The translations under genes and the position numbers were made by a program. From Crambe crambe (taxonomy: Eukaryota > Porifera > Demospongiae > Poecilosclerida > Crambeidae), in NCBI GenBank assembly GCA_963924555.1, contig OZ004588.1, positions 5,518,001 through 5,582,000 on the forward strand: a DNA stretch of 64,000 nucleotides, written 5' to 3'. The notes under the pieces are model-generated. The model searched no databases. It was not told where the DNA came from and worked only from the letters and a program-made list of their open reading frames with translations. Below, piece after piece: positions 7,404 to 39,800 of this stretch (position 1 is its first letter; every line of letters begins with the position of its first letter).

Positions 7404-8273
7404 TTACTGGAAGCCTCCAGCATTTTTGGTCACCCAGGTCTTCAGATTTGTAGGATCCTCTCCTGTTATTTGCTTATAGAGTCCAGGATCTACCTTTTCC
7501 AGTGCAGGGCTGCCTGAATCAATCAATTTGAGCGCCCAAAACATCAAATCCACTAGCCACTCTTCAATTCCCTGGCCAAGCATTGCCTGTTTAGTAGCTT
7601 CATAAGGCACTCGAACATATTCGACATCCTTCTTCAAAACATCTTGAAAAGCCTTAGCAACATCATAGTAAGAATGACGATCACTTGCTATATTCAGAGT
7701 CTCATTGGCATACTTCATAGGATTGACTAGTATTTCTGCCACTGCTTTTCCAGCATCTTCCACTACCACTGTTGAATATGACTTTTCTGGATCAACTGGA
7801 TTGAAAATCTTTCCTTGGCTCACTATAGAATCTTTAAACGCCCAGTAATTCTCCATAAAAAATGGCAGAATAACTACCGTATAAGGAACACCCAACTTGG
7901 GAATTTCACCATCAACTTGTGGACCCTCACCATGACGATCACGACCAATAGCTACAATGTGTTTGACTCCAGCTTTCTTTGCTTCCTCAGCTGTAGCCAT
8001 AACCACTTCAACATCATTCTCAACAGGTGGTGTAACAATGAAAAGAACATGGACACCTTGTAAAGTTTCACTTAGACTTGCATCTCCCATTGTTGCTCGG
8101 ACAACTTGCACTCCTGGAAGATTTCTGATTTTCTCAGCCTTCTCATGATCAGGGTTTCGAACTCCAGCCCTGATCTCGACCTTCTCAGCATACTTGGACG
8201 ATAAGGCGGCAACTGTAGCAAACCCAATATTCCCAGAAGCTCCTGTTACAAATAGTACGGGTTTGGCAGACAT
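7404..8273 (-). CDS. NmrA-like NAD(P)-binding protein, paralogue 1
   Basis: A 289-residue intronless member of the NmrA-like atypical short-chain dehydrogenase family: a Rossmann fold that binds NAD(P) and acts as redox sensor or reductase; substrate unknown. The N-terminus has the beta strand and glycine motif VTGASGNIG (about residues 9-17), followed by RAGVR (cofactor phosphate region) and GVQVVRATMGD. The C-terminal tail ITGEDPT.LKTWVTKNAGGFQ is shared with the three plus-strand paralogues. Between about residues 107 and 130 it is shorter than they are and lacks their RQFAEIE motif, reading GRDRHGEGPQ instead, so substrate or partner choice probably differs. It is divergent from the other three, facing away over about 2.1 kb. 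The start is the first Met before the conserved SAKPVLFVTG. Confidence 0.9.
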   Translation of the reverse strand: MSAKPVLFVTGASGNIGFATVAALSSKYAEKVEIRAGVRNPDHEKAEKIRNLPGVQVVRATMGDASLSETLQGVHVLFIVTPPVENDVEVVMATAEEAKKAGVKHIVAIGRDRHGEGPQVDGEIPKLGVPYTVVILPFFMENYWAFKDSIVSQGKIFNPVDPEKSYSTVVVEDAGKAVAEILVNPMKYANETLNIASDRHSYYDVAKAFQDVLKKDVEYVRVPYEATKQAMLGQGIEEWLVDLMFWALKLIDSGSPALEKVDPGLYKQITGEDPTNLKTWVTKNAGGFQ

Positions 8274-10395
8274 CTTGCAGCTACTATTGTGCTAATGGCA
8301 TCGTTGAAACCGGAAGTATAGATTAATTGAAGTGGGCGTGGGTCTACATGAAATACCTTTGATAGCTACACAGTACAAAAGAGTGCTGTGACAGTGCTGA
8401 CAGTAGCTAAGCCTACAACTAGTGCAGGACAATCAGGATCTGTCAGTCATATTTTGCTGTGGACATTGACTAGCGTCATTTTGATGGTCCAACCCTTTAC
8501 GTTAGCTGCATGTCCTTACTTTATCAGGCTCAATATGGCCTCCCACGATACTATATTTGTAATTTACAGCTTCAAAGTAGCTACCTGTTTCAAAATCCAA
8601 ATTTGTTCTAGAGTCTTATTGACAGCTGCATGGCCATGCACTATAATGAAGCATAGCTATAAATAATCGATTAATGGAATGATTTCATTGTTATATATAG
8701 CTAGCAAATGTGCATGCACAATCTCTCCCCCACCTCTGTATAGCTAATAATGGAGTCTATGTACTTGGACATGCACACACCTCCAAGGGTTAATTATGTA
8801 ACTAGCTATGTGTGTCATGGAAATAAAACAATCATACGTAGGTAAATGCGGACCAATAATTAATAATTTTACTTTATGTATAATTATTATGATGAAAAGT
8901 AAATATGCAGGCTCAATATGGCACCTCCCACGGGCCAGGATGATATGTAATTTACCAGCTTCAAAGTAGCTACCTGTTTCTTCCTTTAAAAGTTTGCACT
9001 GAGGAACACAATTTTGGTCAAATTTTACTGAAACAAGTTCTAGAGTCAGTCTTATTGACAGCTGGCCATGCATTAATGAAGCATAGTTAATATTGATTGA
9101 TGGAATGGTTTCATTGTGGTACAGCTAGCAAATGTGCATGCACAATCTCTTCCCCACCTCTGTATAATAATGGAGTCATATCAGCCTATGTACGTGGACA
9201 TGCACACACCTCCAAGGGTTAATTATAGTTATGTAGTCATGGAAATAAAACAATTGTAAGTAAATGCAGACAAAACCGTTTTGTCGAAGAACTTGTTGAG
9301 TGGAGCTATAGGCACAACTTTAGTGGCATGAAAATAATTAAGCTTATTAGCTAGTGGCATAAAATTTATTATTCAACAGCTCACAAGAAAGATCAAACAC
9401 GTAGATTACTGATAATACGTATGAATTAAGAATTAGCTATGTCTGGCAAAAGTACGAGGCTAGTAAAATCCCCCAAAATAACAGTATTGATCACTATTGG
9501 AATTAAGCTGCCATGCAGAGGAGCTATCACTGTTTGGGATTCACTGACTTAAAAAAAAAAACAACTATTAGCTGATTATTCCACAGACTTCTCAGTTTTC
9601 AGTTTCATGTACTGTAACGACTAGCTAATTAATATAGTGGAAAGTATTTTTTTTTAATCGGGGCCATACACAGAATGTTCAGTGTAATTTTCATAAATTT
9701 GGCACGGTAGATAACTGAAGTAGCAAAAAAATTAATGCTGTATGACATACCTGACTAGCTAGCATTATTATTCCTTCCAGTAATTTTTATTAACCTCAGT
9801 GAAGCCAATCAACAGCTATGCCAATTAACCTTCAGGTGCAGCAATCAAGGCTTTTGTGGTAGCTCAGTACAGTCTGATTCACGAGACTAGTAGCTCAGTA
9901 GCTCACAGTCTGGCTGCAGCACTATAATCGACAGTTACCCCATGTATAGGACTATCTCTTCAGTAACTACTGTGTCTCGAAATTAACATGAATATTGAAT
10001 TGCCCTGACTCTTCCATCAATTAATAATTAGCTATCATGCACAATTACGTAGATGGGAGGGGAGCTGGCTGTTGGATGAACATTGGTAGCATATTTGAAG
10101 TGTGGATATCGTTTAATTTGATGACAGTTTGCTGACTTGTAGCTAGCTATAGACTCTAATGACATTAATTTTTGCTGACTTGTATAACTAGCAGTCAGCA
10201 TATTAACTGTAGACATACACAAAGTATTATAGTCTCCACCAATGACTGCCAGCTGTATAATAGTAGCTTTATAGAGAGTAGGTCACCTATTTATAAAGCA
10301 AGAAAAGATTATCATACATATATGCAGTGTCATTAAACTTCAACTCTTCAACTTCTCATAGCAAACAGTGACTAGCAAGATCATTCAGCAGAATC
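8274..10395. other. Intergenic region between divergent NmrA-like genes
   Basis: No gene seen. It holds the tandem duplication at 8527-9272 and otherwise AT-rich unique sequence. Promoters of the NmrA-like genes on either side should lie here; no specific site can be named. Confidence 0.5.
8527..9272. repeat. Tandem segmental duplication, two diverged copies of about 340-360 bases
   Basis: Copy 1 (8527-about 8855) and copy 2 (8910-9272) both run from GGCTCAATATGG through CTTCAAAGTAGCTACCTG, GCATGCACAATCTCT and CACACCTCCAAGGGTTAATT to GGAAATAAAACAA. Indels separate them. No coding frame is conserved between the copies. Confidence 0.8.
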
Positions 10396-11280
10396 ATGTC
10401 CAAACCAATTGTTTTCGTAATTGGAGCTACTGGTAACATTGGCGCTGCAACTGTTACAGCCCTATCGTCCAAGTATGCTGACAAAGTTGACATCAGGGCT
10501 GGAGTTCGAAGTCTCGAGAAGGCTGATAAAATCAGGAATCTCCCAGGAGTTCAAGTGGTTCAAGCTACAATGGGGGATGAAAAATTAAGTGAAACTCTAC
10601 AAGGAGTTGACACTCTGTATGTGGTCACACCATCTACAAAGAATCGTGCTGAATTGACCATAGCTACAGCTGAACAAGCAAAGAAAGCTGGCGTAAAGCA
10701 TATCGGTGTTGTCAGTGTTCCATCGGCTGATACCACTGATATCATAATAGGACGCCAGTTTGCAGAAATCGAAAAAAAAGTCACCGAGTTGGGTGTTCCG
10801 TATATATTCATCCGTCTACCATCCTTCAATGAGAATTACTGGGTATTCAAAGATACTATTAAAGGTGATGGAGCTATTTTCAGTCCTGTTGATCCGGAAA
10901 AGCCATATACAACTGTAGCAGGTGAAGATGCAGGAAAAGCATCAGCAGAGATTTTAGTCAACCCTACAAAATATGCCAACAAGACCCTGACTATCGTGAG
11001 TGATCGGCACACCTTCAATGATGCTGTCAAGGTTTTTGGAGATATTTTGAAGAAAGAGATCAAATATGTCCAAGTGCCATATGAAGCCACTAAGCAGGCA
11101 CTGATTGGTAAAGGAGTTGATGAATGGCAGGTGACAGTGTTCCTCGAGTTCTATAAAATGATCGATGCAGGAGATCCTATTGTTGTGGAAGTAGATTTTG
11201 GACTCTATAAGCAAATAACAGGAGAGGATCCTACAGACCTGAAGACCTGGGTGATCAAAAATGCTGCGGGCTTCCAATAA
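10396..11280 (+). CDS. NmrA-like NAD(P)-binding protein, paralogue 2
   Basis: A 294-residue intronless protein, first of three tandem plus-strand copies. Rossmann motif VIGATGNIG at about residues 8-16, then RAGVRS and GVQVVQATMGD. A middle IGRQFAEIE segment, an EDAGKASAEILVNPTKYAN segment and a C-terminal TGEDPTDLKTW tail are shared with its neighbours. Expected to be a soluble NAD(P)-binding oxidoreductase or redox sensor; the reaction cannot be read from sequence. The first 100 residues are nearly identical to those of paralogue 3, while residues of about 105-165 differ at roughly half the positions. The gene ends 201 bases before paralogue 3. The leader ending TTCAGCAGAATC before ATG resembles that of the next gene (TTCAGCAGGATC), so the duplicated unit included upstream sequence. 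Confidence 0.93.
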   Translation: MSKPIVFVIGATGNIGAATVTALSSKYADKVDIRAGVRSLEKADKIRNLPGVQVVQATMGDEKLSETLQGVDTLYVVTPSTKNRAELTIATAEQAKKAGVKHIGVVSVPSADTTDIIIGRQFAEIEKKVTELGVPYIFIRLPSFNENYWVFKDTIKGDGAIFSPVDPEKPYTTVAGEDAGKASAEILVNPTKYANKTLTIVSDRHTFNDAVKVFGDILKKEIKYVQVPYEATKQALIGKGVDEWQVTVFLEFYKMIDAGDPIVVEVDFGLYKQITGEDPTDLKTWVIKNAAGFQ

Positions 11281-11481
11281 AGAGAGAACCTAATAGCTCA
11301 TAATTTACAACAATGAAAAATTATATGCGCATGTGCTGATGATCTTTACCTAGCTACGAGCGCGCGGATTTTGCCATTATCATTGTTAATGTCATGTTGT
11401 TGACGTGTAGTGCCACACCCAATTATTGATCATCAAAGATCCACTGCACGATCTCTATAACTCTAATTCTTCAGCAGGATC

Positions 11482-12363
11482 ATGTCCAAACCAGTTGTTT
11501 TTGTAATTGGAGCTACTGGTAGCATTGGTGCTGCAACCGTTACAGCCTTATCGTCCAAGTATGCTGACAAAGTTGATATCAGGGCTGGAGTTCGGAGTCC
11601 AGAAAAGGCTGATAAAATCAGGAATCTCCCAGGAGTTCAAGTGGTTCAAGCTACAATGGGGGATGAAAAATTAAGTGAAACTCTACAAGGAGTTGACACT
11701 TTGTATGTGGTCACGCCACCTACAATAAATCGAGCAGAACTGGCCATAGGTACAGCTGAACAAGCAAAGAAAGCTGGCGTAAAACATATTGGTGTTGTCA
11801 GTATTGCAATTGATGATAAGGATAAGATTACGTTTCAACGCCAGTTTGCAGAAATCGAAAAGGAAGTCTCCAAGACGGGTCTTTCATATACATTTATCCG
11901 TTTACCAGCCTTCATCGATAATTATTGGGCATTGAAAGATATGATAGCAGGTGGAACTATTTACAGCTCTGTCGATCCACAAAAGCCGTTCATAGCTGTG
12001 GCAGCTGAAGATGCAGGGAAAGCATCAGCAGAGGTTTTAGTCAACCCTACAAAATATGCCAACAAGACCCTGACTATTGTGAGTGATCGTCACAGCTACA
12101 ATGATGTCGTTACAGTTTTTGGAGATGTTTTGAAGAAAGAAATCAAGTATGTTCAAGTGCCATATGAAGCCACTAAGCAGGCACTGATTGGTAATGGACT
12201 CCCTGAATGGCAGGTAGATGCGATGCTTGAGCTCTACAAACTGATAGATGCAGGAGATCCTGCCATTATGAACGCAGATTTTGGACTCTACAAGCAAATA
12301 ACAGGAGAGGATCCTACAGATCTGAAGACCTGGGTGACCAAAAATGCTGGAGGCTTCCAATAA
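11482..12363 (+). CDS. NmrA-like NAD(P)-binding protein, paralogue 3
   Basis: A 293-residue intronless tandem copy. Glycine motif VIGATGSIG, RAGVRSPEKADK, and the same ordered motifs as paralogue 2. The middle segment reads FQRQFAEIEKEVSKTG, and the hypervariable stretch just before it (IAIDDKDKI) differs fully from the neighbour. The C-terminus ends TWVTKNAGGFQ. A young duplicate of paralogue 2 on N-terminal identity; the alternation of near-identical and strongly diverged blocks suggests either selection on the substrate pocket or gene conversion. Function assigned only at family level. Confidence 0.93.
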   Translation: MSKPVVFVIGATGSIGAATVTALSSKYADKVDIRAGVRSPEKADKIRNLPGVQVVQATMGDEKLSETLQGVDTLYVVTPPTINRAELAIGTAEQAKKAGVKHIGVVSIAIDDKDKITFQRQFAEIEKEVSKTGLSYTFIRLPAFIDNYWALKDMIAGGTIYSSVDPQKPFIAVAAEDAGKASAEVLVNPTKYANKTLTIVSDRHSYNDVVTVFGDVLKKEIKYVQVPYEATKQALIGNGLPEWQVDAMLELYKLIDAGDPAIMNADFGLYKQITGEDPTDLKTWVTKNAGGFQ

Positions 12364-12733
12364 AGAAATAACCTGTAGACTCAGATAATGTTTAGCATTT
12401 TACAAAACTAGCTTAGATCTAATTGTAATAGGTGTGTGTAGCTATTAGTATAATTTTAATCTGATTTTTTATAGAGCTACACAAAATATTCCATGTGATC
12501 CACATTGCTCTGCAGCAAGTGTTAATCACATCACAAAGTGTGAAGGAATTTTAATGAGATTCATAAATGTTGATTAAAAATATTGAACTCTAGCTTGATG
12601 CAAAGGATTCAGAACTAATTTAGGAACTTCGATAGCAAACTTAGATATAGCTGGCAGCATCGAGCACCTCAAGTATCATCTCTGACAATCTCACAACAAT
12701 AAATTATGACCATGTGCATGCGCAGCTATAAAC

Positions 12734-13624
12734 TTGAAGATGATCAAACCCGTAGTCTTTGTGATTGGGGCCACCGGCAACATTGGTTTCGCTACACTTG
12801 CGAGCTTATCGTCCAAGTATGCTGACAAGGTCCAGATCAGGGCTGGAGTTCGAAACCCTGATCACGAGAAGACTGAAAGAATTAGATATTTCCCAGGAGT
12901 GCAAGTTGTCCAGGCAACAATGGGAGATGCAAGACTAAGTGAAACTTTACAAAATATTGATATCCTTTACATAATCACACCAAATGCTGAGAATCGTGTT
13001 GAATTGGTACTATCTACAGCTGAACAAGCCAAGAAAGCTGGAGTGAAACACATTGCAGTTGTTACCATTCCGCCTTCAGATTATACCATATTTGGACGCC
13101 AGTGCTTAGAAATAGAAGGAAAAATCTCCAAATTGGGTGTCCCTTATACTTTCATTCGTTTACAAATTCTCACCGAAAGTTTCTTGGCATTCAGGGATTC
13201 AATAGTAGGCCAGGGAACCATTTACAGCCCTATCGATCCTGAAAAACCATTCCTGATATTGGCAGCTGAAGATGCAGGAAAAGCAGCTGCAGAGATTTTA
13301 ACCAACCCTACAAAATACACCAACAAGTCTGTTTATGTTGTGAGCGACCGTCACACTTACAATGACGTTGTCAAGATTTTTGGGATTGTTTTGAAGAAAG
13401 AAATCAAGTTTGTGCGAGTTAGCTATGAAGCTGCTGAACAGGCTATGATTGGTCAAGGGCATCCCAAGTGGCATGTGGATGGGCTCCTTGAGGTTTTTAA
13501 ATTGATCGATGCAGGAGATCCAATCATGGAAAAGGCAGATCTCGGACTCTATAAGAAAATAACAGGAGAGGATCCTACAGATTTGAAGACCTGGGTGACC
13601 AAAAATGCTGAAAGTTTCCAATAA
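12734..13624 (+). CDS. NmrA-like NAD(P)-binding protein, paralogue 4
   Basis: A 296-residue intronless protein, the most diverged of the tandem three. Rossmann motif VIGATGNIG follows MKMIKPVVF; either of the two Met codons could start it. It shares RAGVRNPDHEK with paralogue 1, on the other side of the cluster, which suggests those two keep the older state. The middle motif is FGRQCLEIEGK. The stop lies 94 bases from the stop of the convergent KANSL2 gene. Confidence 0.92.
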   Translation: MKMIKPVVFVIGATGNIGFATLASLSSKYADKVQIRAGVRNPDHEKTERIRYFPGVQVVQATMGDARLSETLQNIDILYIITPNAENRVELVLSTAEQAKKAGVKHIAVVTIPPSDYTIFGRQCLEIEGKISKLGVPYTFIRLQILTESFLAFRDSIVGQGTIYSPIDPEKPFLILAAEDAGKAAAEILTNPTKYTNKSVYVVSDRHTYNDVVKIFGIVLKKEIKFVRVSYEAAEQAMIGQGHPKWHVDGLLEVFKLIDAGDPIMEKADLGLYKKITGEDPTDLKTWVTKNAESFQ

Positions 13625-20451: not shown

Positions 20452-21894
20452 ATGTCTCTCTATCGTTATTTTAGCTCTAAGCCAAAGCAACATACTAATC
20501 CACTACCAGATCCTTGTGGCACACTGTCACTGACAGTTCCCTCTTCTTCTATAGAAGCAGCGAATTCCAAAGTTTCTACCGCGCTAAAGCAGGGATCTAC
20601 CACCGGCACCAGAGGGCCATACTCTAGATATTCTGCAGAAAAACGGGCTGAAATTGCAAGAAGAGCAGCAGAACATGGTGTAGCCTCCACTGTACGTTAT
20701 TACGCTGGCAAATTGTCGGATCCTTTGAAGGAAAGTAGCATTCGTACGTGGAGGAATGCCTATATTGCTGAGCTAGAGAAGAACAAAAAAGATTTGAAGG
20801 ATGATTTGATAGTAAAGAAGTTACCCGAAAAGAAAAGAGGACGTCCCTACCTCATAGGAGAAAAGCTTGAAATGCAGGTCAGGGCTTATTTGCAAACCCT
20901 TAGAGCAAATGGTGGTGTTGTCAACACATCAATAGCAATCGGTTGTGCTGAAGGGATTATAATGAACGAAGATAGTAATCTCCTTGCTTCCAATGGCGGC
21001 CACATAATCTTGAGTAAACATTGGGGCAAGCATCTTTTAAGTCGCATGGGTTTTGTTAAGCGTAGGGCAAATACCAAGGCAAAGATTACTGTCGAGGACT
21101 TTGAAGCAGTGAAGGCACAGTTTTTAATTGATATAAAAGCAGTTGTTGAATTTGATGAGATCCCTCATGAATTGATCATAAACTGGGATCAAACTGCTAT
21201 TCATTATGTTCCTGTTGGTTCATGGACTATGGAAAAAGAAGGGAGTAAGCGAGTGGAAATTGTGGGGGTGGATGATAAGCGGCAAATTACAGCTGTATTT
21301 GCGGGATCTCTTACAGGAGACTACCTCCCTCCCCAGCTTATATACAAAGGCACTACCAAACGTTGCCTTCCAACAGTCCAGTTTCCCTCAAAATGGCACA
21401 TTACACACAGCCATAACCACTGGGCAAATGAACAAACAATGAAAGACTACATTAAGAAGATCTTGCTACCATACATTATTGAGAAGCGGAAGGAACTCAA
21501 ACTTTCAGCAGACTATCCTGCACTGGTACTGTATGATAACTTCACTGGTCAAGGGACACAAGAGCTTTTTGATATTCTACAGTCAAACAATATCAATGTT
21601 GTTATAATTCCTGCTAATTGCACAGATAGACTACAGCCTCTTGATGTAAGCGTCAACAAACCTGCAAAGGAGTTTTTGCGTAAGCAATTTCATACGTGGT
21701 ATGCAGAACAAATTTGCAAACAGTTGCAGCAGAAAGACGGATCCAAAGTTTTACCCATTGATCTTAAATTAAGCACCATGAAGCCCTTAGGAGCTCAGTG
21801 GATGATCAAGCTTCAAGATTTTCTAATGTCGAATCCAGATTTTCTCCAGAATGGATTTAGAGAAGTTGGGATTACAGACTGTCTCTCAAATTAA
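20452..21894 (+). CDS. DDE superfamily transposase (pogo/Tigger/jerky type)
   Basis: A 480-residue uninterrupted frame. Residues 58-110 form a helix-rich DNA-binding region (SAEKRAEIARRAAEHGV...IRTWRNAY), followed by the basic KKRGRPY. The DDE_1 catalytic core follows: INWDQTAI (Asp246), LVLYDNFTGQG (Asp362) and TDRLQPLDVSVNKP (Asp398). The protein should bind the termini and catalyse cut-and-paste transposition. The start at MSLYRYF lies 155 bases inside the left end; no in-frame upstream Met is needed. Length and spacing fit the family, and no damage is visible, so it may be active. Confidence 0.93.
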   Translation: MSLYRYFSSKPKQHTNPLPDPCGTLSLTVPSSSIEAANSKVSTALKQGSTTGTRGPYSRYSAEKRAEIARRAAEHGVASTVRYYAGKLSDPLKESSIRTWRNAYIAELEKNKKDLKDDLIVKKLPEKKRGRPYLIGEKLEMQVRAYLQTLRANGGVVNTSIAIGCAEGIIMNEDSNLLASNGGHIILSKHWGKHLLSRMGFVKRRANTKAKITVEDFEAVKAQFLIDIKAVVEFDEIPHELIINWDQTAIHYVPVGSWTMEKEGSKRVEIVGVDDKRQITAVFAGSLTGDYLPPQLIYKGTTKRCLPTVQFPSKWHITHSHNHWANEQTMKDYIKKILLPYIIEKRKELKLSADYPALVLYDNFTGQGTQELFDILQSNNINVVIIPANCTDRLQPLDVSVNKPAKEFLRKQFHTWYAEQICKQLQQKDGSKVLPIDLKLSTMKPLGAQWMIKLQDFLMSNPDFLQNGFREVGITDCLSN

Positions 21895-25330: not shown

Positions 25331-26779
25331 ATGAGTCCACTGAAAGCCTTTTTTCTTCTGCTCTGTCTCATCATGACTGTGCTGCTCATCAGTTTATACT
25401 CGTACAAACATTCACCACTAACTGTTTCAAGGAAGACAGGTGTGATGAATGTGGAGAAGACAGAGTTCATGTCAAGTTCTGTTCCCCTGCAATCGCAATC
25501 GCGAAGTACAACAAACAAACACAGTATTGGAGGTAAGGATGGAACTGCTGTATCAACGAATGCGACAGTCAAGGGTGCTCCAAAACCATATGTGAGAGAT
25601 AAACTCGAACTCACTAAGCTTCATTGGACTTCACTCTATGGCAAAGGTGAGAAGGATAGTTATCACTTTTTCGCTGCTTACTATGATGGTCGAGCATCAG
25701 CTCCTGATAGACCAGTTGTGATTGTGCTTGGTTATGTCAGGAGAAATGTCGCTGCTATAAAATTGTATTGTCTCTTCAAATTTACAAATGGAAGTGAAAC
25801 TTGTTTAAAGCAACCTGCAGAAGAAAAGATTTTAAACTGCTATAATCATAATGCACTTGGAAGGCAACACCTTTGTAAGATGAGCACTACTAAAGAGCCT
25901 CCAATTTCCATAAGGATGAGCACTAAGAGCAGTTGTGAGCTAGCGTCCAATTCAGGAGAAATACCAGTACAGAATCGTCTTAGTGGTGCGAAGGTCAAGG
26001 TAAAGAAATTTGGGGTGTGTTTAGGAGGACCAGTGGTGCAAAAGGATAATACTACTCTCCAAAAACTTGTCCAATTCATTGAAATGAACCGAGTCCTAGG
26101 TGCTGAAGTGATTTACTTCTACATCAATCAGATGCAGATACACTCTGATGTTCTTAAGTATATACTGGAACACTACTCCTCTGATATAGTCCGTGTGATT
26201 GAGTGGAAGAAATTCAAGCCGTGGAATCCTTTACATTACTACGGCCAGCTCCTAATCATGAATGACTGCTTGCTGAGAAATATGTACGAAGTTGAGTACA
26301 TAGTAATGAATGACCTCGATGAAATAATTCTACCCATGAAACACAACAATTGGAGAGAAATGCTAAGCTTCCATGACAGCAAGAAATATGCTAGTTACAC
26401 ATTTCAAAATAGATTTTTACTAGATAGTCCACGTCCTTCAACACCTCTTCAGCTATCAAATAACTGTATAGCTGGTCTACAGGTTCCAATGTATTTTACA
26501 AGAAGAACAATGCATCCATGCCGCAATCCTGGTGACCGTACTAAATTCATAGTGCGACCTCGAATTGCATTACAACCTGCAGTACATGGTATGTGCACGA
26601 GCATTGGTGGTTACATCACAGGTTATAAGGCTCCTGCACACTTGGGCATCAATGCACACTATCGAGATGGAATCCCCAAGAAATGTCAAAAACAGACTGG
26701 AAACTTCAAACAAGTGAATGTGGCAATGAAATTTGCCAGCAGAATTATCAGGAATATGTGTGCTCACTATCATGACTAG
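25331..26779 (+). CDS. Glycosyltransferase family 92 protein (type II membrane)
   Basis: A 482-residue single-exon gene. A short cytoplasmic start and hydrophobic anchor (FFLLLCLIMTVLLISLY, residues 7-23) precede a Ser/Thr-rich stem (about 25-90) and a lumenal domain of the Glyco_transf_92 (formerly DUF23) type. The GT-A core has VCLGGPVVQKDNTT, LVQFIEMNRVLGAEVIYFYI and the metal-binding DLDE at 328-331 within YIVMNDLDEIILPM. The family transfers galactose to N-glycan cores in nematodes and is Golgi-located; donor and acceptor here are not known. The domain is complete to the C-terminal HYRDG and a Cys pair. The start has only a short leader before it and no competing upstream Met. Confidence 0.9.
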   Translation: MSPLKAFFLLLCLIMTVLLISLYSYKHSPLTVSRKTGVMNVEKTEFMSSSVPLQSQSRSTTNKHSIGGKDGTAVSTNATVKGAPKPYVRDKLELTKLHWTSLYGKGEKDSYHFFAAYYDGRASAPDRPVVIVLGYVRRNVAAIKLYCLFKFTNGSETCLKQPAEEKILNCYNHNALGRQHLCKMSTTKEPPISIRMSTKSSCELASNSGEIPVQNRLSGAKVKVKKFGVCLGGPVVQKDNTTLQKLVQFIEMNRVLGAEVIYFYINQMQIHSDVLKYILEHYSSDIVRVIEWKKFKPWNPLHYYGQLLIMNDCLLRNMYEVEYIVMNDLDEIILPMKHNNWREMLSFHDSKKYASYTFQNRFLLDSPRPSTPLQLSNNCIAGLQVPMYFTRRTMHPCRNPGDRTKFIVRPRIALQPAVHGMCTSIGGYITGYKAPAHLGINAHYRDGIPKKCQKQTGNFKQVNVAMKFASRIIRNMCAHYHD

Positions 26780-29740: not shown

Positions 29741-32458
29741 CTATTGACGAGTAATCTTTACTCGTTTGCGTTTGGGGAGTGGTGTATTATCAATTTGGGG
29801 AGGCTCTTTGAATAATCTCTTTCGGCTACAATTTCCTCTAACAGGGTCAAGAGCTTGTGACTTCTGTATCCTAAGGGCTGCAGAATTATCAACACACTGT
29901 TGTATTGTAGGGTTGTCATTTCGACCACCCCGAGCCCTCTGTTGTCCGAAATAGTTCTCGAGGGGGTCTTGAGAGAATCTCTCGCTTAGTACAAAGAGAC
30001 CATCCTCTTGGGAGAGCAAGTACTTAGCCATTTCCACAAATGACATAACTACAAATCAACAGAGTATCTAATAACCATGTACAGAAGATACTGCATGTAC
30101 CTGTAATGTGGATGCCCTCAAAAGTTTCCCTGCTTAGCATCATTTTGTATCGTTCCGTAGAATTCAAATCCTTGTATGTTTCAGTGTACTTCTTCCAATC
30201 ATCAAGATATTTCAAGAATAACCACTGCAAAAACAAAAACAAAAATTAGAATACAGAATAGAGGTCAGTTGGAGGTTCCTGATTTTACCAGAGACATATT
30301 ACCTATTGTGTATACTCACATCAAATCTTTCATCATCAGGACTAAAATATGGCTTGAGGTCTGGTTTTCTTTTTAGTACCCACTCATTCATGCTCCTAAC
30401 ATTTAGGCAGTCAAAGAAACGATCCATCATTAACACGAATTTTTGTGTTTCTTTTGTATCAGGATTCTTGAAATAGGCTTAAAAAAAAAAAAATGCATCA
30501 CTCACACTCTTGCTCAAAACCTAAAAATTAATTGTATGATGTCACACAGTAATTATAATTAGAAGCAGTTATAACTTACTTGTGCTGCAAGGTCTACTCT
30601 CATTCTAGAATACGATGTCAGGTCTAAATGTTCTCTCTTCAATTTCGGCAAAAATGTCAACCCACAGGAACTAGCTTGTACTTCAGAGATTGCATCATAC
30701 AGATCCCATAGCTGCTTCCATGTAATAAACTTCCCATTAAGCTACACAAAAGGAGTTTAATCTAAACTATGGATATCATACTATATAAGAGGTTACCTGC
30801 ATCAAGCGAGTGCCATTCACTCCTGAGTGGGACCAACAGTTTATAGCTGTTTTTATAAGATGGGGTGGATCTGCCACAAAATACAGTGACCGACCATCAT
30901 GAGAGTAACGATTTTTGGTCTTGTAGATGGGGGTTGATTTTGATTTCTTGCCATGTAGCCGAAAAAAATTCCTGTTTGAGCTGCCTCCATCAGCAGTAAT
31001 GGACAACACTTTGATTCCACTGGCTTCTAGACGACAAATTGCCTCCCACACTATTGGCCACACAGCTTCACCTGTTACTCCACAAGTGGCAAAATGAGCA
31101 TAAGGGAAATTGAGTTTGAACATGATTCCTCGTACCATCAATGTCAAAAGTTGCTTAGCCACTTCTGGCTGTAGATCATTTTCAAGTCGAAGCAAATCAT
31201 CATTTATATCCCCAAGGGATGTGAAACCAAAGAATATTTTTTGTATACTAGTCCCTCTTTTACTTTCATTTCATCTAGCAGAAGGGCTACAAATTTTCTT
31301 GAGTCAGGAAGAGATAATTTACTTACTTCATCATACAACTGCTGATTGACTTCATGTTGAAAACCTACTGAGTTAGTAAAATAATGGGTATAATCAAACA
31401 GAGTTCGCTCCGATGGTAATTTAATGAACCCACTTGTCCTGAGAGCATGGTAAGATGAGCTAGATAACAGTTTGAGATTAAGGCACCACTTAATGATAAC
31501 TGGATGCCAACGGACACTTTTGCTGTCACTAGAAGTGGCTGCTTTTAGTTGCTCTTCCCAAAAGAGCCTTGCAAAACTCCCATCGGGGTATGCATCTGCT
31601 ACTTTCTGATGACTATCACGCATAATTGAAATCAAATCTGACTCAAAATGTTTATCAAGATTTTTTCCTTGGCCAGTCAGTTTCTTTACCTTGTTACTCA
31701 AACTGAGAGCAGTCAGTTCAGCTTTTCGTAACCTAGACCTTAGTTTTTCAATTTTGGCACTTTTCTCGGGAGTATTAAGATAACGTTCATTAGTGTACAT
31801 GGAAGTAGAACTAGGGGTAGACACTCGTGCATTCCACCGATGATACATAGAACGTAATGTTGATCTATACTTGGTACAAGCTGGACATTTTACAGACTTC
31901 GTTAAAAGCTCACATGCACTTGTGCGAATAGTTTCTGAGTACTCATTTCCACTAAACTCAACAGGCATACTATCCAGCATGGCAGCTACTGAACCATCAG
32001 GTGAACATATCTTCCCTTTTTTTAGCTTTAATCATGCTAACAAAATTTTGATCCGGTTGTCCAGGGCAAATTTTCAAACTATCAACAGTGCAGATAAGAT
32101 TATTTAGTGATTCAGAATCCAGGGTCATAGGGAAGGAATGCAGAACATTACACATAGCTGGTGTAAGTTTATGATTATACAAATATAGTGACCATGAGAG
32201 ATGGGAATCAATGGTAAGACTAAATATGATCCGTAGGGGTTGAGAGCTACTACCGCTTGCATGAGAAATCTTACAAAATTGCAACTTTCCCATACCATCT
32301 GAGCTGCGATTGCTCCACTCCCTGGGCAAGACAAGAGTAGAAGCAAGTTGAGCTAGTGCTTGATCTTCTTGATCAGACTGCTTTTGACGCTGCATTCGTA
32401 TCTCCTTTTCCTTCTTTTTACGGTGCTGAAATCCCTTCTTTCGTGGCATAGCTGTCAA
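29741..32458 (-). pseudogene. P-element/THAP9-type transposase, frameshifted
   Basis: Pieces: 32458..32024; 32017..31243; 31237..30797; exons 30741..30580, 30477..30320, 30224..30101 and 30048..29741. It encodes an RNase H-like P-type transposase: FVALLLDEMKVKEGLVY (first Asp), GFTSLGDINDDLLRLE, ITADGGSSNRNFFRLHG, DPPHLIKTAINCW, a GTP-region counterpart (LNGKFITWKQLWDL...RMRVDLAAQ) and the C-terminal SQDPLENYFGQQRARGGRND. No THAP zinc finger was seen at the start, which instead is basic (PRKKGFQHRKKKEKE). Two frameshifts lie in homopolymers, the T7 at 32017-32023 and the T6 at 31237-31242. They may be true mutations or sequencing errors. Introns have good splice sites; the join into the 30477 exon is one base out of phase. 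Confidence 0.8.
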
Positions 32459-32880: not shown

Positions 32881-34531
32881 CCATAGATATAAGATGTTTA
32901 CGGGATTGGAAACGGATCACGTGCTCTCGTTAGCAACTAACAACCGAGGCGCGTTGACAGCTGAATGACATAGCACTTTTGTCAAAGTTGCTGTTCTGAC
33001 AAGATCCGTGAGGTAAGACTTATGCCAATGATACTATAATACACTAGGGCATAGATTTACTGTATGAAATAAATTTTAGCTCAGATTTTCAAGTTTATTC
33101 CTACAAATACTACTGTGGTGGTTAATGGGACTGTAATCCCTCTCACGCTTGATGAAATCAATTGCTGTTGCCCATTTTCTGATCAAAAGGCATGTAAACT
33201 TTAGCTACATGGAATAGTAATGTTAGTTTTTGTATTAGCTGACATAGGGTAGGTGTGGGTATTATGAGTCAGCTAAGTATTGTTGCTCTTTTCTTGGAAA
33301 TGGACTATCTTAGAATCCTGAAAATTGCTCCAGATATAAAATAGGTTATGTAGAACTAATGTGTGGAGAAAGTAATAAAAATATTGCATCTTGTAGATAG
33401 GAGTTATGATCTTACATAACATACTCAGGAAGGTATTATGAGTCATAGGTATGAATTATGAGTCGCTGGCTTGATTTTTGTCTCTAAAAATTGATGATGT
33501 AGCTAAGATTTCTACAAAATAAAAATAATAATCTTAGATTACTTTAAAATTCATTTTTTACTCCATTTTGTGGCATCATTGCTTCCCTGCGCTTTTTTTA
33601 TTCAGATTGGTTACGATTGTACCCATTTTTAAACTTCTCATTTAAGATTATGTTTATGCATGAATAAGGCATTTTCTGGATGATTTTATTTGATCAAAAG
33701 ACCAAAAAAATGATTAAGTTTTCATATCTAAAGTATCAACTCTTGTAGATTCTTATCAAGTGGTGAACCCATAATAGGGACTGACTCATAATACCCACAC
33801 CTACCCTATATTGTCTCTAGCATTTGCAAGTGGTGTTAAAACTGTAGTCCCTCTCCCAAGAAATAGATTAACAATATTGCAACTGTATTAGTAATTTCAG
33901 GGAAAGGATAGAACAGTAAATGGAATTGGCGCATTTGTTTTCTATACAATAGTCATCCTATGGAGATGGCAAGCTTACTATATTTCCCCCCTAATATCCA
34001 TAGGGTCCACAGGACAGCTGACTGAGCCGAATTCTTGAGATGGATGGTGTCAAAATCCAACAGCCAAAAGCTGGAAGTATTGCAATAATGTTGATGAGGG
34101 AGAACTGAGCAGAAACTGGCGGATAACTTTGGGGCAAAATTATCTAGCTATAATAATAATGAATTTAGGTCTAATTTTAATACCAAAAGTCATTCTGGCC
34201 TTTCTTTCAAATCAATCACATAAAATTAATGTATAATGAGCAATGATAGGTACTCACAAGGAAAAAAGTTATGAATAATTAATAACTTCCTTCCTCACTC
34301 TCCAACTTCAACTCTCTGACTCTTCACTTCTTCAATACCTTCCCCTTAGCTTACTTGTACTATTCTGTGAGCTGTAGGGGCAGAACATCACTTTAACTGC
34401 CTTGAAAGGAGTGAATATTGATCTCCTTTCACGGCCATTAATATAATTAATGCTGCATGCGCGTGCGCATCTGTCAACGCGCCTCGGTTGTGTATGTTTA
34501 ATAACATCCGTTTCCAATCCTTTATCTATGG
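32881..34531. mobile_element. 1.65 kb element with long imperfect inverted termini
   Basis: Left end 32881-32960 and right end 34471-34531 share, inverted, CCATAGATA, GGATTGGAAACGGAT and ACAACCGAGGCGCGTTGACAG, with an insertion of about 11 bases in the left arm and a different spacer in each. The interior holds another complete MITE. No transposase frame inside, so non-autonomous. Its right end lies about 90 bases beyond the TRIM stop codon. Confidence 0.65.
33244..33809. mobile_element. MITE with perfect 29-base termini, nested
   Basis: ATAGGGTAGGTGTGGGTATT... at 33244-33272 is repeated exactly, inverted, at 33781-33809. Extra copies of the ATTATGAGTC core occur at about 33434 and 33457. 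No coding potential. It sits inside the larger TIR element, implying sequential insertion. Confidence 0.85.
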
Positions 34532-34620: not shown

Positions 34621-36048
34621 TTATCTTGGGAAATGTGCATGTACATGACGTTCAAAATCTTGTTGAGGTACTCTTCCAGGGAATTTAGTGTTGCAGATGG
34701 GACATGACCTCTCCTGTGAACAAGCATTTGCTATCAGCGTGTCTTGCTGCACCGTTTGCTCCAATTTTGCCTTCTCTTTGACCAGGCCTGAATTAGTTGC
34801 ATGCAGCTCTGTCAATTCCATGACCACAGCATCAAGATAAGCCTGCTGTTCATCTAACTTTGCTGTCTTGTTGTGAACAACTTTATCATGCTTATCTTTA
34901 TGCATATCCTTATGGTTTTCATTGGTCAGTTTAGGATCAATACCTTCAGTTATTATAGCATTGGTCTTCAACAGCTGCTTCAGGTCCTTGGCACAGTTCA
35001 CCTTCACCTTTATGTTTACTGGCTTGAGATTTTTCCTGTCCTTGCAATGTTCTTTGATCTCTTTCTCTATGCGACTCTTGATCTCAGCATGCATGCACAT
35101 AATCTCATCATTAGAAGAATGTTTGACAAACTGTTCCGTATATTCAATCACACTTTGGACAACTACACAAGAAGTGGACACACTCTTTTCTTGGACAGAG
35201 AGATGCTTCAACTTCTCTGTCACTTTGAATGCAGCCTCTTTCAACAGTTCTTTCCGATGGTTTTCGATTATCCGTTGAAGTTCATCAAAGGAGCCATTGA
35301 TGTCATTGGCCATAGATTCCCCCCGAGCCTCTATCTCACATTTGGTGGATTTTATCTCCTCAACGGCACGTGACAAATCCATCTTAACTTCCTTGAGAGG
35401 GTCCAACTGCTTGATCAGCTTCTTCTTCATCTCAGGAGCAGATTTTTTGATGAATTTATGGTTGTGACCAGAATGGTCCTCGATGGTGCAGTCACGACAG
35501 ATGAGACAATTACAATCGAAGCAGTAAATCTTCATCACTTCATCATGTTCTTTGCACACTTGAAGTGGTGGTTCTTCCATGATGATCTCTTTAGCTCCTT
35601 CTTTCAATTCAATTAGAGAAGCAATCTTGTGCCCAGCAAACACCTTCATTCTGTGATGAGATTCGATACACTTCTCACAGACAAAGAGAGCACACTGTCG
35701 ACAAAAACCTTTGGCCTTGTCCCCAGAACACATTTCACACTTGGCTTCCACCTTGCTGTGAGCTTGCTCCAGCTTGGAGTGCACTGATTTCATGCGATTG
35801 ACAAAGAAAGCTGTTGGAAGCTCATCCACATTGCCTTGGGGGAGAGTAGTATTTTTACGACACTCAGGACAAGAGAATGGCTTGTCGAGGCCAGTCCTCA
35901 GGGTCAGTCTGTGGACACACTGCTTGCAGTAGTAATGGAGACAAGGAAGGACCTTGGGCTCGGTGTAGTGATCGTGACATATAGCACACGTGATCTCCTT
36001 CTCAAGATCTTCCACACTTTTCTCAACTACATCCACACGTTCAGCCAT
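34621..36048 (-). CDS. TRIM-type RING E3 ligase with C-terminal TAX1BP1/CALCOCO-like zinc finger
   Basis: A 475-residue single-exon protein. RING finger at about 21-63 (CAIC...PCLHYYCKQC...CPEC); B-box-like fingers at about 104-141 (CEMC...CEKCIESHH) and 165-197 (CKEHDEVMKIYCFDCNCLIC); a long coiled coil at about 205-440. The last 27 residues are CPICNTKFPGRVPQQDFERH followed by VHAHFPR. That gives C-x2-C-x15-H-x3-H, the spacing and key residues of the ubiquitin-binding fingers of TAX1BP1 and NDP52. TRIM proteins transfer ubiquitin; the terminal finger would add ubiquitin or cargo binding, as in selective-autophagy receptors (inference). No NHL, PRY-SPRY or filamin domain follows. The start is the first Met after an in-frame-free leader. 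Head to head with DNAJC9, 759 bases apart. Confidence 0.88.
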   Translation of the reverse strand: MAERVDVVEKSVEDLEKEITCAICHDHYTEPKVLPCLHYYCKQCVHRLTLRTGLDKPFSCPECRKNTTLPQGNVDELPTAFFVNRMKSVHSKLEQAHSKVEAKCEMCSGDKAKGFCRQCALFVCEKCIESHHRMKVFAGHKIASLIELKEGAKEIIMEEPPLQVCKEHDEVMKIYCFDCNCLICRDCTIEDHSGHNHKFIKKSAPEMKKKLIKQLDPLKEVKMDLSRAVEEIKSTKCEIEARGESMANDINGSFDELQRIIENHRKELLKEAAFKVTEKLKHLSVQEKSVSTSCVVVQSVIEYTEQFVKHSSNDEIMCMHAEIKSRIEKEIKEHCKDRKNLKPVNIKVKVNCAKDLKQLLKTNAIITEGIDPKLTNENHKDMHKDKHDKVVHNKTAKLDEQQAYLDAVVMELTELHATNSGLVKEKAKLEQTVQQDTLIANACSQERSCPICNTKFPGRVPQQDFERHVHAHFPR

Positions 36049-36807
36049 AACTTGCTATCTAATGACAAAATAGCTATGGGTAAGAAAGAAAAAAAGTGTG
36101 ACACTTTGCCATACCTTTTAAAATAATATAGCAGATCTTCCACGATCGACACTGACAAGGATACGCCCTAAACATAGTGCTCTAGTACACATGCGCACGT
36201 GTTAAATAATGGGTGGGGCTTGTTTTTGCTTTCTGATTGTTCTTTTTGCAAATTAAGTCAATATTATCAGCAAAAAAAAAAAAAAAAAAAAAAACATCAA
36301 AAAACAACTACAACAGTCTCCGGTCATGATTATGTGTATGTCCTAAGGAACTGCCCTTTTAGTAGAAGAACCATCACCCTGTCCCCCCTTGGACCTCCCG
36401 ATGAGACTATGACTATGAGCCTTAGGACATGAGGTCATCACAGGGAGGAGTGCAGTCGAGATGATCTCGTACCAACAATATAGAATGTAGTCGTTTGATC
36501 GGTGGGTAGGACTTGATTTGGCACTATTAGAAGGGATGTGGTGATTAGGGAGAGAGGTGAGGGAGTGTGCAGGGGGCAGTCTGGGAATTCTTCCTTTGAC
36601 TTTCAGAAGGGTCAAGGACATAGTACACAAGTGTCCACTAGGAGTGATCTCTTGGTGGGAGACAGAAGCTGGACTAACCAAGAATAGCTTATCATGTGAT
36701 CACTTCTAACAGCCCGCGCGTCGCGTAATTGGCGGGAAGGAAAAGGGTCGCCAAAGAGAAAATCTTTCAGCATTGAGAGTAAGCTGCTCAGCTAACCAGA
36801 CTACAGT
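36049..36807. promoter_or_regulatory. Divergent intergenic region between TRIM and DNAJC9 genes
   Basis: Likely holds both promoters. It contains a run of about 23 A (36272-36294) and a G/C-rich stretch with GCGCGTCGCG just upstream of DNAJC9. No TATA box is evident at a convincing position. Open frames here are not supported. Confidence 0.4.
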
Positions 36808-39800
36808 ATGTCCTCATTTCTGGACACCGTGGAGTCTCAGTTTGGGAGTAAGAACTTGTATATAGTCCTAGGTGTGGAGAAGAGTGCTTCAGAGAATGAG
36901 CTACGTCGAGCCTATCATCGCCTCTCTCTGAAAGTCCATCCCGACAGAGCTGAGCCAGAAGAAGTGGACCAAGCCACTCAAAAGTTCCAGGTGAGGGTGG
37001 TATTGGTGGTATACATGATTACTATAGTAGCACCACATTATAAGTCAGGGGTGTGTTGCACTTATGTTATAGAGATATGGCTATGACCTGAAGGTTCAAG
37101 TACAGTGCCTCACATGTAATGCAATTGCGTTGGTGTGCAACCATTTTGCTTAGTGAGGATGATTCCCAATTTAGGTGACAATATGTCACCCGAGTTCCAA
37201 TGATTATCTCGCCTGATAAACATACCTACACACCATGAGTATTAATTAAAGAGAGGATTACCCATTGCAATTCAACATCAAGTTTCAGGTGTGGATTGTA
37301 ACACTAGTAGCCATCCCAGGGTCTAAAATCACAGGGGGAAGGATCAAAAACTGAGTTCAAGGCTACCTACCTACAGGGCCTGGGGGTACAAAGTATTCTA
37401 TAACTGAATTGCTGTTCAATTAAAGATACTACTGAGCTAAACAGTACTAGTTCTATGTTGACAGTTGTAGAAATCTGGTATGTTATATATTGTCCACTCA
37501 AGAGAGAGAATTATAGTTCTCTTTTCTGTTATAATTATGGGACAGCATCCACTCTTCTTCACTGTGCATGTCTCGCTGAGAAAGAGTGTCATTAAGGCTC
37601 TGCTCATATGGAACTTCAGTAGACCTTCCCAGCGTCCTTCTAAAGAATGGAAGTACTTGAGTTAGCTTCCTTCGGAATATCTGATTGTGCCAGATCTTAG
37701 CAAGGAGCAGGAATGGGATGTAGATTAAGGGAACAAATCCAATCAAAGCACATACTGCTATGGAGAAGTGAATGCTCTGTGGCGATTTGATTCCAGCTGT
37801 CATTATGCACAGAACAGAGGTATACCAAGAAGCCAGGATCAATACAAACCCAACATCAACTGTGTTATATACAGAATGCTGTCTCCTGTAAGGTTTGGTT
37901 GTCAGAAGCACAAGTGCCAAAATCAGAAGTAGAATCGTTGAAATTCCATAGAAATAACCGTTTAGAGTGAATGCATATGTCAGGAATAGAGTGATTCTCA
38001 TTATTAGGAAAGTGACTGAAAAATAGCGACAATCATATTTTCCCTCTACAACTCCATCCTTGTAACTGCCTTGGAAAGAGTCTATGAATATCCGAAGAAC
38101 TTGCCAGTTTCCACAGAGCTTTTGAAAGATTTTTAAAGGATAGAGGAGAAGGAGCAATAGTGGAAGAATTAGGAAGAAAAAAGACACAAAGAGAGCCAGA
38201 ATGCCGTAAGGAAGGTGCTCTGTCCCAAAATATTTGAAATCAGCATCATAGTAGAGATATAAGCCAACCTTTTCGCCTTTGGTATTGTATGCCAGTGTTG
38301 GGACTAATAAGTCAAATGAAACGCTCAGAAATTTCACGTGAGATAAGGTAAGAAAACTGGCAAAGACATCAATGATCGATGCCTTAGCATCATCAATTTT
38401 CCTCCGGAATCGAATGTGACATTTTCTAAATGGCATCCATAGGATAACCAGAGGTAAGCACCCACGTGCGTGTAGCTGTATCAGTGCGTAAGCCAGAACC
38501 ACTAGACAGAGAGGATACACTGCAATCACATAATCCAAGGCCAAAACTTGCAGCGTGTTGATGTTTAGGCAAATCGGGGGCAGGAAAGTACGGAAAAAGT
38601 CTAAATTCCACACTCCATATAAGGCAAGGACTGCTTTAGTTGCATACAAGTTGTTTGGGTGATATTTTAAAGTGGAGAAAACAATTCGTATATTTGCTGG
38701 AATGGAAAAAATCTGTGCAAAGAAGATGTAGGCCGTCATTTTCGGTGAAGTTGCATTCACACGAAATAGAAGAATGAAGAGGAAGAATATCGTGAGAGGC
38801 AGAAAAGTGACAATCAAGTATGTTATCCAGCTACGAAGTCCAGACTCTGAGCACTCTATACACTTCATGTCATATGAGTAAGCTGAAGGCTGGAATCCAT
38901 CCTTGCATCCTCCACATAACCTTCCTGTTCTCTCAAAGTTTCCGCACATCACCTCATCCAAGTATGAAGCATTCAGAGGCATCTTGTGGTAGAGCATGTC
39001 GAGTTTGTAAGACTTATTATTGTTCTCACAGTTGTAGAAACAAGCACCAGCTATCGTCCCGAAATCCTCATCGTAAGTCATACAGTAGCAATCCATAATG
39101 GCATTTTCTTGTCTGTTATCTTCATCCTGACACCTTATGATGCCTCCCAAGTCGTCTCCACACTCACATTTGGAAGTGAGTTGATTAAATACAAACCATG
39201 GCATTGGGCTGCAAGTTTGATTGGTATCTTCAGCCACTGGGCCAGGCATGGAATCTTCAGCCACTAGGCCAAGCATGCCAGGCATGGAATCTTCAGCCAC
39301 TGGGTCAGGCCTGGAATCTTCAGTCACTGGGCCAGACCTGGAATCTCCAGCCACTATTGGGTCATCAGGCTTGGAATCTTCAGCTGCTGGGTCAGGCCTG
39401 GAGTTTTCAGGTACCACCAAACTGGAGGTGGCCTGAGAAGAATGCATTGCAGAGAGCAGTAATACTAAAGATGCAATATTGTTTCTGAAATTCACCATCT
39501 TCATCATGCACTTAGTATGAAAACAGCTTCACTGTACACAGCTAGAACATGAAGGGATATTACCTTGTACACGGATATTGAGAGGTGTTTATTATTGATA
39601 GCTAATGTATGTATACTAGCAAATAAATTTACTTTCTATGTGAAGAAATCCACCCACATGCAAGTTTGTTATTGGTAGTCTCTATTCAGTGGACTGGAAT
39701 GGACTGGACTAGACTACTGGATTGTCCAATTTAGCCACAAAATTCATTTTCAATAAGCTCAAAACTATAACCTGGATAATATTTCAGCATAGAAGCAAAG

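Follow-up and report, generated by a model that had tools for sequence, protein, structure and literature searches.

What does a TRIM protein do with the zinc finger of an autophagy receptor? The question is raised by one gene in the sponge Crambe crambe, which lies on the reverse strand of the 64,000-nucleotide stretch of contig OZ004588.1 analysed here (the window). An earlier note, made from the letters of the window, had read the gene as a TRIM ligase ending in a finger of the TAX1BP1/NDP52 type where another C-terminal domain would usually stand, and had proposed for it a one-protein role in selective autophagy or antimicrobial tagging. Using domain searches, structure prediction and a comparison with the rest of the genome, we find that the gene is, by its sequence relationships, a fusion whose two parent types are both present in the same genome. 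That the fusion gene is real we regard as virtually certain, whereas its function can be given only as a set of readings of graded likelihood.

Domain make-up of the fusion protein

The gene is a single open frame of 1,428 bp with no internal stop (Table 1). Its N-terminal part matches the solved structures of TRIM3, TRIM2 and TRIM28, and Pfam recovers the RING and both B-boxes (PF00643 gives 55.3 bits over two stretches). The region that follows is assigned as a coiled coil by homology, aligning with TRIM28/TRIM25 up to residue 282 and being homologous to the same region of the paralogues; the full-length predicted structure, with a pLDDT of 44, is unusable, this region included. The intact RING-B-box-B-box-coiled-coil protein of the earlier note is borne out, the coiled coil by homology. 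No filamin or NHL domain and no SKICH domain (PF17751) was found in the protein by Pfam at E <= 1. By its domains, the protein is therefore a TRIM (RING and B-boxes found directly, the coiled coil from homology alone), falls outside subfamily C in its present form, lacking filamin and NHL, and is not a CALCOCO receptor, lacking SKICH, yet carries a CALCOCO-derived finger.

Table 1. Positions in the window of the fusion gene, its parts and its upstream flank
Feature	Position	Strand	Basis or remarks
Fusion gene ORF, TRIM RBCC + CALCOCO/TAX1BP1 C-terminus	34621..36048	(-)	475 aa, single open frame
CALCOCO/TAX1BP1-derived DNA	34621..34898	(-)	86% identity to G000:C11 donor, one in-frame 15-nt gap
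Autophagy-receptor-type ubiquitin-binding finger (predicted), residues 447-475	34624..34710	(-)	PF18112; ligands C449, C452, H468, H472; Q462/E466 conserved
Junction, 33 nt	34899..34931	(-)	About 15 nt resembling TRIM filamin start, then about 15 nt filler (read from sequences)
TRIM-filamin-NHL-derived DNA, residues 1-372	34932..36052	(-)	92% to C10:7087154-7088283; 91% to C10:7106426-7107555
TRIM coiled-coil region, about residues 200-345, limits approximate	35014..35451	(-)	Homology
B-box 2, residues 163-198	35455..35562	(-)	PF00643, best stretch 163-198
B-box 1, residues 104-142	35623..35739	(-)	PF22586 29.6 bits (cut-off 27.0)
RING finger, residues 20-66	35851..35991	(-)	PF13445 30.8 bits (cut-off 25.2); PDB TRIM3/TRIM2; ligand pattern complete
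Short conserved upstream element, common to C10 TRIM 5' flanks	36182..36225	(-)	DNA comparison
5' flank, homologous to C10 TRIM upstream DNA (79%)	36292..36669	(-)	DNA comparison

The C-terminal finger, C-x2-C-x15-H-x3-H at residues 449-472, had been placed by the earlier note at 34621-34701, which is the right site but misses about one codon on the cysteine side. In a whole-protein Pfam scan, residues 447-473 score 30.4 bits (5.1e-7) with PF18112, 'Autophagy receptor zinc finger-C2H2', whose cut-off is 23.2; the last 33 residues scanned alone reach 35.2 bits (1.6e-8). Ordinary, DNA-binding C2H2 models score lower and do not reach their cut-offs (zf-C2H2_4 at 13.4 against 27, zf-met at 12.5 against 21.2), so the outcome that the earlier note had named as refuting, an ordinary C2H2 finger, did not arise. 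When 200,000 sequences of 40 letters were drawn at random with the composition of the protein, 31 contained the bare pattern. Among solved relatives of the tail, searched with a query differing at one residue outside the finger, the TAX1BP1 fingers are best (E 1.5e-10), those of FAAP20 and NDP52 being much weaker. In structure prediction, the tail is modelled at a pLDDT of 80.5 (the finger at about 70) and its top Foldseek match is the ubiquitin-bound UBZ2 of TAX1BP1 (54% identity, rmsd 1.5 Å over 26 columns), with an E-value of 0.21 that is weak, as are the fold matches of the tail overall. The glutamine and glutamate that contact ubiquitin are invariant across the fusion protein, the donor and both human TAX1BP1 fingers, where mutating the two together is reported to abolish ubiquitin binding (PMC4599966). 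We consider it quite likely, judging from these residues and profiles, that the finger binds ubiquitin.

Two parent genes in one genome

Both halves were traced by searching the genome to which the window belongs, 143 Mb in 119 contigs. The fusion protein has at least 92 matches there, and 59 of the 92 listed lie in stop-free open frames of at least 700 aa, 54 of these at 43% identity or more (hand count). The five best listed, the window itself aside, are 85-88% identical over residues 1-373 to 1-381. One paralogue was scanned and carries a RING, B-boxes, a filamin domain (62.3 bits) and NHL repeats (67.8 bits); in 20 further regions the TRIM frames of at least 450 aa show, by eye, a coiled coil followed by filamin-type sequence, the longer ones ending in NHL-type repeats. 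In a tree of the fusion RBCC and 22 paralogues taken from the 92 listed matches, the fusion groups with the copy at C10:7087k (bootstrap 84). The TRIM genes of this genome form a large expansion, many of them clustered, on C10, C5, C17, C14, C20, C11 and other contigs.

The tail has a different source. Residues 385-475, 91 residues comprising a coiled coil and the finger, have one other good match in the genome, at C11:6153423-6153791(-), about 0.6 Mb away; 253 of 293 DNA columns are identical, the match stops at the stop codon, and no significant match to the donor was found past it. The PF18112 finger itself was found at two places in the 143-Mb genome, the donor and the fusion. In the donor, whose exon structure is read from open frames, an upstream exon carries SKICH (PF17751, 98.6 bits), with TAX1BP1 as its best solved relative (8.9e-28), and a long exon ends in the same finger (35.0 bits); by these features it is a CALCOCO/TAX1BP1 homologue with SKICH, a coiled coil and one finger. 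The donor thus has the animal CALCOCO layout and the TRIM copies have the TRIM-NHL layout, and for that reason we take the fusion as the derived form. The earlier note's reading, a TAX1BP1/NDP52-type finger on a TRIM where the usual C-terminal domain would stand, is supported, and the DNA of that finger is a copy from the resident CALCOCO/TAX1BP1 gene. The extent of the graft, coiled coil as well as finger, and the presence of both parents in one genome are new beyond the earlier note.

Beside the donor, at about 6162800-6221200 on C11 (L045, L046, L047), lie three similar SKICH-bearing genes, two with long coiled-coil-like frames, in none of which the PF18112 finger was found. They are a local expansion of CALCOCO-like genes.

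What the graft left behind bears on the role first proposed for the gene, in which one protein would be a complete selective-autophagy or antimicrobial factor, tagging cargo and also bringing it to the autophagosome. Only the C-terminal 278 nt of the fusion derive from the donor, so the SKICH exon and the region after SKICH, the place of the cLIR, were left behind, and SKICH is the domain reported to bind FIP200 in TAX1BP1 and NDP52 (PMC9582228). An autophagy-receptor finger on a TRIM E3 is what such a factor would carry, TRIMs have been described as scaffolds for autophagy, binding BECN1-ULK1 (PMC10790450), and the protein has one canonical LIR-like match, FDEL at residue 254. Since this FDEL falls within the TRIM coiled coil and recurs in six of the seven NHL-bearing paralogues compared, it did not come with the graft. 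With the SKICH exon not transferred, a complete one-chain receptor is improbable, and the earlier proposal is weakened to that degree.

Junction and surroundings

The homology to TRIM genes extends upstream of the frame into the 5' flank, so the TRIM part was most likely duplicated at the DNA level together with its flank, rather than retrocopied. Four C10 paralogues have, directly before their start codon, about 200 bp that the fusion gene lacks (window 36048-36290), so the promoter or leader of the fusion gene may not work.

Could two genes have been misjoined in the assembly or in the gene model? The join is read from the assembly. A misjoin should match its sources almost exactly, whereas DNA divergence from the nearest parent is 8% for the TRIM half and 14% for the tail, which argues against an assembly chimera; one open frame spans the junction, and the locus lies inside a 7.66-Mb contig. 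We consider an artefact scarcely credible.

Several neighbours are observed in the window. A repeated element with terminal inverted repeats (32881-34520), found at more than 40 other genomic places at 92-97% identity, ends about 100 bp past the stop of the fusion gene, and a second inverted-repeat insert (33244-33809) is nested inside it. An ORF at 31204-31980, ending 2.6 kb past the same stop, has a below-cut-off match to a TNP-like RNase H transposase (PF21787, 20.1 bits vs 24.6). The window also contains a DDE_1 transposase-like ORF (20452-21894, 55.8 bits), a glycosyltransferase family 92 ORF (25331-26779, 93.2 bits), a small local family of four similar ORFs of 289-294 aa (7404-13624; the one scanned is NmrA-like, 102.3 bits) and, at 37498-39507, a 669-aa ORF in which several stretches look hydrophobic by eye and for which Pfam gave no match at E <= 0.001.

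Age and constraint

Against its nearest paralogue, the fusion RBCC has a dN of 0.054 and a dS of 0.197; the tail against the donor (91 codons) has a dN of 0.058 and a dS of 0.273, with silent changes in 10 codons and an altered residue in another 10. The two dS values, given without error bars, are similar, as expected of one event. Three-point estimates for the fusion's RBCC branch have medians over 36 pairs of 0.039 (dN) and 0.122 (dS), and the six pairs of lowest dS give a dN/dS of 0.28-0.41, a range qualified by the fact that part of this branch may predate the fusion. In the finger, the residue is changed in 2 of 28 codons, the zinc ligands and the Q/E pair being untouched.

These values bear on a second alternative, a young chimeric gene that is unexpressed or as yet functionless. 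The fusion was found at one place in the one genome searched (an IMG/VR scan returned no relatives), its 5' leader is shortened, and the repeated element lies close to its stop. The signal of selection in the tail alone is also weak: under neutral drift, 10 or fewer changed codons have a P of 0.05-0.08, and of 0.03-0.05 when the lack of a stop is included. A cruder test, in which all 25 tail changes are placed at random, gives a P of 0.0012, on which we do not lean because constraint on the donor's own branch is included. The whole ORF speaks more clearly, with no stop where the neutral model expects a mean of 4.1-5.5 (P 0.013-0.004), which argues against long neutral drift. That 1,428 bp carry neither stop nor frameshift although the nearest parents are 0.2-0.27 away in synonymous distance, with changes sparing the zinc and ubiquitin-contact residues, makes a functionless chimera unlikely.

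Comparison with known systems

The fusion shares with the CALCOCO/TAX1BP1 receptors (TAX1BP1, NDP52) a C-terminal coiled coil and UBZ-type finger, copied from the genome's own member of the family, and differs from them in lacking SKICH and the following stretch and in having a RING, B-boxes and a TRIM coiled coil in front. With TRIM subfamily C (TRIM2/3/71/32; filamin and/or NHL), it shares an RBCC copied from the genome's expanded filamin-NHL TRIMs, but the receptor tail stands where filamin and NHL domains stood.

E3 ligases of the RAD18 type, laid out as RING, UBZ4 and SAP without B-boxes, likewise hold a RING and a ubiquitin-binding zinc finger (predicted in the fusion) in one chain, whereas the finger here is of the TAX1BP1 type. 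Membership in that family was rejected: the RING reaches 25.9 bits with the rad18 model TIGR00599 (cut-off 175.05), over residues 11-66 only.

In TRIMCyp, which arose through a retrotransposed CypA, the fused partner replaces the C-terminal recognition domain. The TRIM subfamily and the partner differ from those seen here, and the fusion gene is a DNA-level copy with its 5' flank. As an event, TRIMCyp is by analogy the nearest parallel, a TRIM (TRIM5, joined to cyclophilin A in primates and rodents) united with part of another cellular gene (PMC6677749). Among the tails named for human TRIMs are SPRY, FN3, COS, NHL, filamin, PHD-bromo, MATH, ARF and Exo III, and TRIM evolution is described there as the joining of the tripartite module to few types of C-terminal domain (PMC2533329). 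A literature search limited to text, with animal protein databases outside its scope, found no TRIM with a UBZ or TAX1BP1-type finger.

The functional neighbour is TRIM32, a TRIM-NHL ligase reported to cooperate in trans with the CALCOCO receptors TAX1BP1 and NDP52 (PMC5595311, PMC10404268). There, two proteins meet, TAX1BP1 binding depending on the NHL domain; in the fusion, one chain carries the receptor tail in the place of NHL.

A proposed function

As the best explanation of the whole, we favour, tentatively and at nearly an even chance, a fusion gene encoding a TRIM E3 that is recruited by ubiquitin and amplifies ubiquitin coats for a separate CALCOCO receptor. The proposed steps are:

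(i) A DNA copy of a TRIM-filamin-NHL gene was stripped of filamin and NHL and received from the resident CALCOCO/TAX1BP1 gene its 91 C-terminal residues.

(ii) The product, if expressed, would most likely be an E3 ligase of the TRIM type, with ubiquitin recognition in place of its former target recognition. An active E3 is rather likely.

(iii) The TRIM coiled coil, presumably dimerising, would probably make the finger multivalent, and the finger would dock the protein on structures already carrying ubiquitin.

(iv) The RING could then add further ubiquitin, making the protein a feed-forward amplifier of ubiquitin coats, a role that we see as possible rather than probable.

(v) An intact, separate CALCOCO protein may then read these coats and link them to autophagy.

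The mammalian literature touches this explanation from both sides. TRIM32 is reported to increase ubiquitin and NDP52 on intracellular bacteria (PMC10404268). In mouse, its NHL domain is required for TAX1BP1 binding in selective autophagy, and its role with TAX1BP1 is independent of E3 activity (PMC5595311), which counts against an amplifier. So does the loss of five residues at the 15-nt gap, which would shift the register of the coiled coil.

The same protein might instead interfere with its relatives, either pairing through the TRIM coiled coil with intact TRIM-filamin-NHL paralogues or using the finger to compete against CALCOCO for ubiquitin and myosin VI; in both cases it would restrain or redirect them. 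Its RBCC has up to 88% protein identity to long paralogues, 59 of the 92 listed matches lie in stop-free frames of at least 700 aa (hand count), filamin, NHL and SKICH are all absent, and the ubiquitin and myosin VI sites are reported to overlap on the human TAX1BP1 fingers (PMC4599966). An inhibitor would not need the complete RING ligands and two B-boxes that have been kept, and we hold this interference, too, to be unlikely.

Returning to the ubiquitin-recruited E3, the writer and reader of ubiquitin that the earlier note saw in one chain stand as a prediction from kept zinc ligands and the Q/E pair. That they form a working single-chain writer-reader in cell-autonomous immunity or cargo clearance, with NHL replaced by TAX1BP1's ubiquitin-binding tail, is doubtful.

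Significance

Were that writer-reader true, a partnership in trans would have become one protein, by a TRIMCyp-like swap of recognition aimed at the ubiquitin coat. As a candidate 'find ubiquitin, add ubiquitin' enzyme in a single chain, the fusion could also be used ready-made in building tools. Because both parents lie in the same genome, the fusion, its TRIM parent and its receptor parent are directly comparable. If a TRIM has gained the ubiquitin reader of an autophagy receptor, this would be a new kind of TRIM tail and would bear on whether TRIM-NHL ligases and CALCOCO receptors share one pathway in other animals, as in mammals.
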